Shown: in pieces, positions 16,847 to 55,990 of the stretch | How the letters are laid out: the number at the start of each line of letters is the position of its first letter | How positions within the stretch are numbered: position 1 is the first letter of the stretch | Assembly: GCF_004000235.1 (NCBI RefSeq) | Contig: NZ_RCIO01000001.1 | Span: forward strand, 1,240,400 to 1,304,399 | DNA length: 64,000 nucleotides | Source of the DNA: Mesorhizobium sp. Z1-4 | Lineage (GTDB): Bacteria; Pseudomonadota; Alphaproteobacteria; Rhizobiales; Rhizobiaceae | Direction of reading: 5' to 3' | Notes under the pieces: model-generated | The model's database searches: none | Told to the model about the DNA's origin: nothing | What the model saw: the letters and a program-made list of their open reading frames with translations, nothing else | Translations under genes and position numbers: made by a program

Positions 16847-16931
16847 GCCCAGGTGGCGGAATTGGTAGACGCGCACGGTTCAGGTCCGTGTGCCGCGAGG
16901 CGTGGAGGTTCGAGTCCTCTCCTGGGCACCA
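16847..16931 (+). tRNA. tRNA-Leu (anticodon CAG)
   Basis: 85 bases that fold as a class II tRNA. The acceptor stem is GCCCAGG with CCTGGGC (16847-16853 and 16921-16927), the anticodon stem is CACGG/CCGTG around the loop TTCAGGT, a long variable arm follows, the T-loop is GTTCGAGTC, and CCA is encoded at 16929-16931. Anticodon CAG reads CUG, the dominant leucine codon in this GC-rich genome. No integrase gene or repeat of its 3' end was seen beside it. Confidence 0.97.
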
Positions 16932-53260: not shown

Positions 53261-54013
53261 ATGAGCTTTGCGTTTCTGCGCCAGAAGAAAGATGCGGCCA
53301 TGCCGCTGACGCGCGACCACGAGGTCGGCGGACGCACTCTGCCGCTCCGGATCGTCGAAAACGACCGCGCCACCCGGCTGACGCTTCGCATCGCCTCGGG
53401 CGGAACCGGGCTTCGCGTGACCGTGCCGCCCGGTGTATCCACTCGCGAGGTCGACCGGTTTCTGGAACGCAATCGCGGCTGGCTGGAGCAGCGGCTTGCC
53501 AAGCTGCCGGACCAGCCACAGGTGCGGCCGGGCATCAAGATTCCGTTGCGTGGCGTGCCGCACCTTATCGTTCATGAACCCGGCAAGCGCGGCATGGCCG
53601 AAACAGGGCACACCGATGACGGGCCTGTGCTCATCGTGCATGGCGACCGCCGTTTCCTGCAACGCCGCGTCGCCGATTTCCTGAAACGCGAAGCCAAACG
53701 CGAGATCGAAGCGCTCGTTGCCAGACATACAGCCACCGTTGGCCGACGGGCGAAATCGGTGCGTTTCAAGGATACGAGCTCGCGCTGGGGGTCATGCACC
53801 TCCGACGGCGCACTCTCCTTTTCGTGGCGCATCGCGATGGCACCCGGCACGGTGATCGACTATCTGGTCGCGCATGAAGTGGCGCATCTGATCGAGATGA
53901 ACCACGGACCTAAATTCTGGAAGCTGTGCCGCGAGCTTTGCCCGCGCACCGACGAGGCCAAGGCCTGGCTCAAACGCAACGGCCCGGCGCTTCAGGCAAT
54001 CGGGTTCGGGTAG
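53261..54013 (+). CDS. M48/YgjP-type metallopeptidase with rebuilt 3' end
   Basis: 250 residues. YgjP-like (DUF45/M48) zinc peptidase with H205-E206-V-A-H209 and H215 (MNHGPKFW) as metal ligands, preceded by SRWGSCTSDGALSFSWRI. Substrate unknown. The last 33 bp before the final codon (53977-54009) recur at 54855-54887, so the original end of this gene is now behind an 878-bp insert; copy 2 continues GGC TGA, copy 1 continues GGG TAG, and the encoded C-terminus is unchanged. Its TAG together with the next bases forms the AGGAG site of the inserted gene. Confidence 0.9.
   Translation: MSFAFLRQKKDAAMPLTRDHEVGGRTLPLRIVENDRATRLTLRIASGGTGLRVTVPPGVSTREVDRFLERNRGWLEQRLAKLPDQPQVRPGIKIPLRGVPHLIVHEPGKRGMAETGHTDDGPVLIVHGDRRFLQRRVADFLKREAKREIEALVARHTATVGRRAKSVRFKDTSSRWGSCTSDGALSFSWRIAMAPGTVIDYLVAHEVAHLIEMNHGPKFWKLCRELCPRTDEAKAWLKRNGPALQAIGFG
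53977..54009 (+). repeat. 33-bp direct repeat, copy 1 (3' end of the M48 gene)
   Basis: Identical to 54855-54887 over all 33 bases. Left boundary of the insert. Confidence 0.95.
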
Positions 54014-54023
54014 GAGCGCAAAA

Positions 54024-54626
54024 GTGCAGAACTTATTAGCACTTCCCTATGAACTGCAGATAGTGCTGGTCGCTGGCTATTTGGGATACAAGGTTTCTTC
54101 AGGTGGAAGGGATAAATCATATAGGGCAGAAGATGTTCTCCTGCAAATACTTACGTTTGGATTGATAGCGCGCTCGGCTTCTTTGATCATTGCTCCCGAC
54201 CTAGAAAATATCGCCGCCGCCGCCGCAATTTCGATCGGTATCTCAGTTTCTACTGGAGCCTTTTGGCGAGGTGTCATTGCGCAATACGCCGTCAGGACGG
54301 TCCAGTTTCTTCGCATTTATCGTGACGACCATGAACCCACTGCCTGGGCATCACTGACCTCCGCGAGAGCGAAGTGGACGTTCATTCAGGTTCACGTGAG
54401 AGACGGCCGTGTACTCGAGAGTGTATTCGCAACAATACCTTCTCAAGGCCGCCCAAGTCGGGAAATTACGCTGAACGAGGACGGCGTTGTCCTGTATGTG
54501 ACGGCAATCTATTCAGCTGCGGGTGAAAGGACGCCGCAGGTGATAAAAGGTAACGACAACGATTTCATCGTTACGTTCATCCCCCGATCAGAGATCCAGC
54601 AAATCGAAGTGGGTTGGAAGAAATAG
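54024..54626 (+). CDS. DUF6338-like membrane protein in the insert
   Basis: 200 residues from a GTG at 54024; AGGAG (54012-54016) overlaps the stop codon of the M48 gene, so it is probably translated from the same transcript. Three hydrophobic segments (about residues 8-22, 40-58 and 64-84) precede a soluble domain with AKWTFIQVHVRDGRVLESVFATIPSQGRP, ITLNEDGVVLYVTAIYSA and VTFIPRSEIQQIEVGW. This matches the general layout of DUF6338 proteins. Biochemical role unknown. Codon choice differs from its neighbours, supporting transfer. Confidence 0.75.
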   Translation: MQNLLALPYELQIVLVAGYLGYKVSSGGRDKSYRAEDVLLQILTFGLIARSASLIIAPDLENIAAAAAISIGISVSTGAFWRGVIAQYAVRTVQFLRIYRDDHEPTAWASLTSARAKWTFIQVHVRDGRVLESVFATIPSQGRPSREITLNEDGVVLYVTAIYSAAGERTPQVIKGNDNDFIVTFIPRSEIQQIEVGWKK

Positions 54627-54627
54627 T

Positions 54628-54765
54628 TCATTTCTTTGGTGGTGGTGGCGGTGCTCCTGAACCTGTTGTTGTAGGTTGAGCAGAACTTTGGCCATGACCA
54701 CCTCCGGACGGAGAGCGCCCTGTGCTCGAACGGCCTGATCCTTGATTTCCAGTTCTTGGGGGCAT
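54628..54765 (-). CDS. Small Pro/Gly/Ser-rich ORF convergent with the DUF6338-like gene
   Basis: 45 codons from ATG at 54765. The product begins MPPRTGNQGSGRSSTGRSPS and ends with TTTGSGAPPPPPKK, so it is low in complexity, basic and without hydrophobic segments. Stop codons of the two genes are one base apart. Ribosome site is weak (GGGAAA). An AT-rich stretch (54785-54830) upstream could be a promoter. Supported only by its clean frame, tail composition and position; possibly a partner of the DUF6338-like protein. Confidence 0.4.
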   Translation of the reverse strand: MPPRTGNQGSGRSSTGRSPSGGGHGQSSAQPTTTGSGAPPPPPKK

Positions 54766-54854
54766 CGTCTTTGTTTCCCGAATCGAAACTATGTTATTTT
54801 AGCATGTAATTTTCCGTAACGCAGACTTTCGTCGCTGAGTTTCTAGCCCAAGCA

Positions 54855-54887
54855 CAACGGCCCGGCGCTTCAGGCAATCGGGTTCGG
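54855..54887 (+). repeat. 33-bp direct repeat, copy 2
   Basis: Identical to 53977-54009. Followed by GGC TGA-type codons in the M48 frame (TGA at 54889-54891), apparently the original end of that gene. Confidence 0.95.
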
Positions 54888-54895
54888 CTGACCCG

Positions 54896-55990
54896 TCAGC
54901 GGCCCGCCAAGCCGTTCATGCCCGGCAGGATGTTACGCGCGATCGCGAAGACAATCAGCAGTGCGGGAATGGCGATGAAGCCGCCGATTGGGCCCCACAG
55001 CCAGATCCAGAACGCCAGCGCTAAAAGCACCAAAAACGGATTGAGCGTCATGGTGCGGCCGATCACCATCGGCGTCACAAACTGCGCCTCGATCAGATTG
55101 ACGCCGAGATAGGCGAGCGGCGGCAGGATGCTGTCGGTAATCGTGGAGCCGATCGACAGGCCGACTGCGAACATAATGACCGCCATCACGACCGGGCCAA
55201 TATAGATGACGAAATTCAGCAGGCCGGCGAGAGCGCCCCAAAGCAGCGGCGAGGGAACCCCGATGAGCCAAAGCACCAGCGCAACGGCGGCCCCTAGCCC
55301 GACATTGATCGCAGTGATCGACAGCAGATAGCGCGAAACCAGCGTTTCCACGTCGCGGAAGATGTGGGCCACGCGCCAGCGCAGGCGGCGATTGACGCAG
55401 ATGCGCAGCAGCGTGAGACGAATGTCGTTGCGGGTGGCAACGAAGAAATAGAGGCTCGCCATGAAAAGCAGCATCTGCGCGACCAGCGCCGGCGCCAGCA
55501 CAGCGACATCCTCGACGCCCGCGCCTTCCTGCTCGACCTTCAGCGTGGAGGTGGAGCCGCCCATCAGCGAACCCATCTCTTCCTGAAGGTTTTTCAGCGC
55601 ATTGATCGGCCCGCGCAACTCGGCGAGGTGGATTTGCAGGCGGTTCCAGATGCGCGGCAGCTCACCTGCCCAGAAGGAAAGCGGGCCCATCAGCGCAATC
55701 GCAAGCAGGCACACCACCACGACAAACAAAAGCACGACCGCGGCCGAGGACAGCCAGCTCGGCGTACCGCGCCGCTCAAGCCAGGTTGCGACCGGGCCCA
55801 GCATCAGGCCGACCGTTACCGCCAGCGCGACCGGCATCAGGATGAATGCTCCCGCATGAAGCGCGAAGATGGCGCCAATCACGCCGAGCAATATGACTGC
55901 AGCCGACGATGCGCGACCGAGCAGGACGTCGATGTCGACCCTGAGCGGCACACGAGCGATCGGCGGGAGTTTGGTCTCGGGCTTCTTCAT
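54896..55990 (-). CDS. AI-2E/PerM family permease
   Basis: 364 residues with about eight hydrophobic helices; family region GALAGLLNFVIYIGPVVMAVIMFAVGL and late GPIGGFIAIPALLIVFAIARNI. Members transport autoinducer-2, sodium/protons or other small solutes; the substrate is open here. Divergent from the lipoprotein gene. Confidence 0.88.
   Translation of the reverse strand: MKKPETKLPPIARVPLRVDIDVLLGRASSAAVILLGVIGAIFALHAGAFILMPVALAVTVGLMLGPVATWLERRGTPSWLSSAAVVLLFVVVVCLLAIALMGPLSFWAGELPRIWNRLQIHLAELRGPINALKNLQEEMGSLMGGSTSTLKVEQEGAGVEDVAVLAPALVAQMLLFMASLYFFVATRNDIRLTLLRICVNRRLRWRVAHIFRDVETLVSRYLLSITAINVGLGAAVALVLWLIGVPSPLLWGALAGLLNFVIYIGPVVMAVIMFAVGLSIGSTITDSILPPLAYLGVNLIEAQFVTPMVIGRTMTLNPFLVLLALAFWIWLWGPIGGFIAIPALLIVFAIARNILPGMNGLAGR

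Follow-up and report, generated by a model that had tools for sequence, protein, structure and literature searches.

Three proline-rich small proteins have been detected by mass spectrometry in Pseudomonas stutzeri, where a DUF6338 gene belongs to the same predicted operon, and the available sections of that report describe them as confined to P. stutzeri and not conserved beyond it (PMC10433244). Small predicted inner-membrane proteins carried by phages are also known from the exclusion morons of the HK97 gp15 type (accessible part of PMC10883804). The family phrog_12870 was likewise defined from phage proteins; within the limited literature covered, one paper was found for DUF6338 and none for phrog_12870, and, within the literature on Sm-like membrane proteins, the part of PMC11607428 available concerns an unrelated two-helix protein.

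The locus described here lies in a 64,000-nucleotide stretch of the Mesorhizobium sp. Z1-4 genome (hereafter the window), in which two genes are inserted behind ygjP, the gene for a YgjP-like metallopeptidase. The larger inserted gene encodes a protein matching phrog_12870, but the window copy is lone and chromosomal, and the microprotein encoded beside it is absent from the PHROG model. The locus differs from the P. stutzeri system in that the window protein has no significant match to DUF6338 (PF19865) and the microprotein gene is convergent, although the small proteins end alike (SPPPKKR for the small ORF of the DUF6338 locus L105 and PPPPPKK in the window). The likeness to HK97 gp15 is drawn by analogy, with no claim of sequence kinship, and the locus differs from it in consisting of a two-gene pair with a barrel domain. 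As in the remnants of integrated prophages and islands, a gene-end repeat is found on both sides, the gene is restored and relatives have an empty site; in contrast to such remnants, the insert carries no recombinase, only 845 bp separate the exact copies, and the protein-coding target was not seen as a recurrent site among 394 genomes of the family.

Insertion into the last codon of ygjP in one lineage

The features of the locus, in window coordinates, are as follows.

53261..54013, forward strand: host gene, a YgjP-like metallopeptidase of 250 aa that now ends GGG TAG (Pfam PF01863, E 1.4e-56; ORF).
53965..54009, forward strand: repeat copy 1 (attL-like), 45 bp, the right-hand 33 bp of which (53977-54009) equal copy 2 exactly.
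54012..54016, forward strand: AGGAG, the likely ribosome-binding site of the larger gene, judged from its sequence.
54024..54626, forward strand: phrog_12870-family protein of 200 aa with a GTG start (PHROG E 1.5e-19, models and fold comparison).
54628..54765, reverse strand: convergent Pro/Gly-rich microprotein of 45 aa, ending APPPPPKK (ORF, recurrence beside relatives).
54766..54842, no strand assigned: AT-richer stretch of 77 bp upstream of the microprotein start (sequence).
54843..54887, forward strand: repeat copy 2 (attR-like), with four transitions relative to copy 1 in its outer 12 bp (54843-54854) and an identical inner 33 bp.
54888..54891, forward strand: C TGA, the rest of the original last codon and the original ygjP stop, matching the single site of L003.
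54896..55990, reverse strand: AI-2E family transporter, the convergent flanking gene (Pfam PF01594, E 1.5e-38).

The original prediction described an exact 33-bp duplication of the ygjP end, and positions 53977-54009 and 54855-54887 were found to be identical at 33/33 bp, with a repeat unit of 878 bp and 845 bp between the exact copies. That length holds for the exact core; the full repeat extends leftward to 45 bp at 91% identity, and its four mismatches, all of them transitions, fall within the outer 12 bp of copy 2. Allowing up to three mismatches, 32 of the 33 repeat bases were found at only two sites in the window, and at none in 100 shuffles. The end of copy 1 gives ygjP the codons GGG TAG, and copy 2 runs into C TGA, four bases before the end of the AI-2E gene (54896). 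ygjP recovers both its frame and its stop, exactly at the last codon. The single site of the nearest relative (L003, from genome G005) ends ...GGGTTCGGC TGA. Since G005 has GGC TGA at the position at which the window has GGG TAG, copy 2 leads into the original stop, and the proposal that TAG is the new stop and TGA the original one, four bases from the next gene, agrees with both the sequence and G005.

In three of five congeners (G005, G001 and G002), ygjP adjoins the AI-2E gene, the gene end is present once and there is no insert; in the other two (G003 and G004), the AI-2E gene was not found beside ygjP within the stretch examined. This is the single-copy empty site in close relatives that the original prediction called for, and the insert was therefore gained in this lineage, at the last codon of ygjP, and is not ancestral. 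It is present once in its genome. A scan of 394 genomes of the family with a pattern for the ygjP end gave a match in 128 of them, and two neighbouring copies were found in this genome alone, with no second insertion at ygjP in the 394. Two matches were also recorded in G458, G460, G505 and G565, on separate contigs or hundreds of kilobases apart, and at least one match in each of these genomes has three mismatches.

The DNA between the copies is AT-richer, as originally noted: the GC content of the insert is 0.503, as against 0.630 for the window, and all 1264 tiled windows of insert length exceed the insert value, the lowest (0.507) being tiles that probably overlap the insert. The insert is compact, with little besides two genes and its ends, and, as was also originally noted, it contains no recombinase. 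Copy 1 is separated from the start of the larger gene by only 14 bp; the AGGAG shares bases with the new ygjP stop and precedes the GTG start by 7 nt. There is thus no space for a promoter ahead of the larger gene, which suggests that it is read from the ygjP transcript. The stop of the microprotein gene lies one base from that of the larger gene, and the 77-bp stretch at 54766..54842 is the only space in the insert for a promoter of the microprotein gene. A promoter scan identified none in this stretch; its one promoter-like site falls within the larger gene (0.6 expected). A single tRNA gene was found in the window, for tRNA-Leu at 16847-16931, far from the insert, and the integration target is therefore not a tRNA.

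Mode of arrival of the insert

The outer 12 bp of copy 2 are informative about the way in which the insert arrived. Only 411 of 87,663 control 30-mers extend as well (0.47%, P 0.0047), three of the 87,663 match that well with transitions only, and at a codon that reads AAA in copy 1, copy 2 has AAG, as do G005 and G002. Because these 12 bp have diverged, and by transitions only, the arriving DNA seems to have carried its own ygjP end; comparison of the two copies suggests that the element probably brought a diverged version of this gene end, in the manner of an attP. The divergence speaks more for site-specific integration at the 3' end of a gene than for break repair or transposition, and it adds to the case for 3'-end integration already made in the original prediction.

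A double-strand break with staggered ends within the last part of ygjP, at which non-homologous end joining captured a fragment and duplicated the overhang, would also yield an exact duplication without a recombinase and would explain the absence of a second insertion, and the genome does contain a Ku gene (E 1.0e-46). However, such a repair event would not predict the 12 further diverged bp with their four transitions, or that the last codon and stop are exactly restored, and it would be unusual for a captured piece of DNA to hold a whole two-gene module with margins of just 14 bp and 77 bp. We therefore regard break repair as distinctly unlikely.

The insert contains no transposase ORF, and no pair of terminal inverted repeats was found at its ends among the 25 longest of 29 pairs; a transposon origin was rejected on these grounds. 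The argument from the 33-bp length does not hold for every transposon, since target duplications of 8-514 bp are given for IS1549 and IS1634 in the part of PMC2266710 available. Transposition with an unusually long target duplication of this kind would nevertheless leave the outer 12 diverged bp unexplained, and we consider it very improbable.

The source of the arriving DNA was sought in several ways. No match to the gene end was found in viral contigs, phages or plasmids (exact patterns gave 0 matches in viral contigs), the 45-bp end matched no phage or plasmid DNA record, and the insert DNA had no match in phages and plasmids; a loose pattern for the ygjP end gave too many chance matches. 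These searches bear on a single crossover of the RecA type, in which a circular DNA with a ygjP end would have integrated through the 33 bp of homology. This would require no recombinase, and a perfectly matched stretch of 33 bp comes close to the shortest that homologous recombination can use, but it would require a circle bearing both the module and the gene end, and the 45 bp were found in no plasmid or phage record. Little credence can be given to such a crossover.

Alternatively, the 845-bp insert may be a complete mobile element devoid of an integrase and served by a recombinase in trans. Its compactness, with two genes and ends, would fit such an element, and ten tyrosine-recombinase matches are present elsewhere in the genome, all outside the window. 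However, there is one copy in the genome, no second att-like site was found there or in the 394 family genomes, and the other loci with the module lack flanking repeats, so that as a separate explanation it is improbable, to much the same degree as the RecA-type crossover. It is a variant of the best explanation and is compatible with the formation of an att pair.

The original prediction also called for a search for further copies of the larger gene behind unrelated genes with duplicated ends, and none came to light: of 14 phrog_12870-type loci tested, a flanking repeat was present at the window locus only (0/13 at the others), and none of the other family genomes among the 394 has two neighbouring ygjP ends. 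The possibility that the module spreads generally by duplicating gene ends was rejected, with a repeat in 1/14 loci and nothing similar in a separate repeat search. No paper linking ygjP with prophage integration was found in the literature covered, and the available part of a study of integration hot spots in Sinorhizobium (PMC11476347) contains no M48 or YgjP term.

The phrog_12870 gene and its proline-rich neighbour

The protein encoded by the larger gene matches phrog_12870 (PHROGs v4) over residues 3-196 (profile positions 5-201 of 210, E 1.5e-19), as do its relatives from L036 and L091. It has hydrophobic stretches, with predicted N-terminal helices at residues 9-26, 35-59 and 63-95, and a predicted Sm/LSm-like barrel at about residues 102-200 (structure model with pLDDT 79.2 and pTM 0.48). 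Fold comparison of the barrel gave Sm/LSm or spliceosome entries throughout the 50 matches listed, with Z values of up to 7.2 and an rmsd of 1.9 over 59 residues for 4emh_A; the tool calls this level common, and the Sm/LSm likeness is therefore taken only as a lead. The best Foldseek match had an E value of 0.051, with none below 0.001, and a profile search of solved structures gave unrelated molecules (best E 0.18).

The designation of this gene as DUF6338-like was only partly sustained. The window protein itself has no Pfam match at E values of up to 1, PF19865 included, and the kinship is seen only through relatives, with sub-threshold matches to PF19865 for L036 (E 4.6e-5; 23.5 bits, under the 26.5-bit cut-off) and L091 (E 0.12). 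These profile matches suggest that phrog_12870 is a distant relative of DUF6338. Neither insert protein matched a PADLOC-DB model at E values of up to 1, and viral-contig protein searches with the window protein and with L077 gave no match.

The convergent 45-codon ORF noted in the original prediction is matched by similar ORFs beside most relatives of the larger gene. Two similar convergent ORFs, both ending GDRPPPPRR, are present in L036, and the codon differences over the last 21 codons of the window copy and the two L036 copies are 6/6/11, 4/7/12 and 6/5/12 at positions 1/2/3. This concentration at third codon positions is the pattern of coding sequence. A strict microprotein criterion, drawn up once the first 13 loci were known, was passed by 9/13 phrog_12870 loci and 11/840 control ORFs (13/842 before the removal of two rows repeating the same loci). 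With the criterion unchanged, two of four later loci passed (L123 and L126); L127 has a similar ORF without the basic tail and L128 has no microprotein. By a criterion of composition only, likewise drawn up with those first loci known, a convergent ORF was found for 13/17 phrog_12870 genes (L126 only through an inner start) and 81/818 controls, a set that includes spurious antisense ORFs (Fisher 3.5e-10), and the microprotein was missing in 4/17 loci. The phrog_12870 set leaves out L089 (cut by an IS3 element) and L090 and L124 (at the end of a record or contig).

As in P. stutzeri, a Pro/Gly-rich small ORF is found on the same strand at 8/12 DUF6338 loci, compared with 79/818 controls (3.7e-6); on the opposite strand, 6/12 DUF6338 genes and 81/818 controls passed. 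This set excludes L110 and L114-L118 (partial, sub-cut-off or second pieces), and retains L109 (broken frame), L112 (uncertain ORF) and L113, scored as misses; L104, which does have a small ORF, was scored as a miss in the composition test solely because of an upstream start that makes this ORF too long. Since counterparts recur beside both families (13/17 as against 81/818, and 8/12 as against 79/818), the 45-codon ORF is in all probability a genuine gene. The recurrent two-ORF module and its many phage relatives were missing from the original prediction.

Two further observations concern the small ORFs. The same-strand Pro/Gly-rich ORFs in L101-L108 and L111 overlap or closely follow the DUF6338 genes, and YQP and PPKGGSGVP motifs are common in them. 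On the small plasmid CP081163 (L119:3268-3771), several convergent proline-rich ORFs ending PPPKPKR or PPPPKR lie behind a phrog_12870-like gene.

Genomic settings, possible function and significance

The phrog_12870 family is rare, being present in 4/101, 6/397 and 4/279 genomes in three surveys, that of the window included. A link to phages, by neighbouring phage genes or location on a viral contig, was recognised for 8/17 loci. Relatives lie among phage structural genes, as the window copy does not: L040, L041 and L123 have a head-tail adaptor gene upstream, L092 has a major head gene and L127 a tail gene, and terminase and minor-tail genes lie near L076. A phage transposase is found near L075, L091 sits on a viral contig, and in the congener G002 a copy with 28% identity is set in a phage-like neighbourhood.

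Other relatives have neighbours of another kind. A caspase-DEAD helicase gene lies 8 bp upstream of the phrog_12870 gene in L036 and 9 bp upstream in plasmid NZ_CP088097 (L089), and QatA and QatB adjoin the L036 gene; L036:4891-9033, with the helicase, the phrog_12870 gene, two tandem proline-rich ORFs and QatA/QatB, is a possible defence island. A fixed operon with the helicase was rejected, as no such neighbour is annotated in seven other plasmid records with the helicase; a PHROGs scan of eight helicase neighbours from six of these seven gave no phrog_12870 match, and the L094 proteins upstream of the helicase are not similar to the window protein. On two plasmids, a 201-aa protein that is not phrog_12870 directly precedes the helicase (L094:2388-2993 and L095:2390-2995), and relatives of the helicase have TIR-domain and caspase genes as neighbours (L095:1-3000 and L094:7177-9053).

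These settings leave more than one function to be weighed. In a toxin-antitoxin-like unit, the membrane protein would harm the cell and the proline-rich microprotein would restrain it. Two small adjacent genes kept together in two orientations, in phages and in chromosomes, would suit such a unit, as would the repetition of the microprotein in L036 (two) and L119 (several). Against this, the larger gene follows the direction of the structural genes in the phage loci, and 3/17 loci show no sign of a partner (L043 and L128; under the strict rule, others). We consider such a unit rather unlikely, and superinfection exclusion, inferred by analogy with HK97 gp15, is the preferred function.

Our best reading, which we hold with slightly more conviction than doubt, is that a phage-type "moron" pair, which may form an exclusion module, was stranded behind ygjP by integration of the att type. 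Four steps would be involved. With the greatest confidence, the repeats would be an attL/attR pair produced by site-specific recombination of the element's diverged ygjP end into ygjP. The element would be a phage, a satellite or something similar, reduced to its cargo or served by a recombinase in trans. The larger gene would be read from the ygjP transcript, and the microprotein would be produced from a separate promoter in the 77-bp stretch ahead of copy 2. With the least confidence, the products may form a membrane-bound phage-exclusion pair in which the microprotein attaches through its PPPPKK tail to the barrel of the larger protein.

Taken by itself, the insertion is a tidy but unremarkable trace of integration at the end of a gene, by a mechanism of a known kind; the module is the new part and matters more. 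A microprotein usually missed by annotation recurs beside two related families of uncharacterised membrane proteins, and the module is found in phages, plasmids and chromosomes, in either orientation. That the partnership is kept in both gene orientations speaks for a function as a protein and against an antisense RNA. It is possible, if on balance doubtful, that phrog_12870, DUF6338 and their microproteins constitute one widespread and unrecognised two-component system, with a membrane-anchored Sm-like barrel and, as its partner, the conserved PPPP[KR][KR] tail of a disordered microprotein, that would be a moron in phages and a candidate defence gene in plasmids and chromosomes, and in which a protein partnership, not an antisense RNA, would be what is conserved. 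The proline-rich small proteins of P. stutzeri gain a wider family context, and two uncharacterised families gain a testable partner and a testable binding motif.
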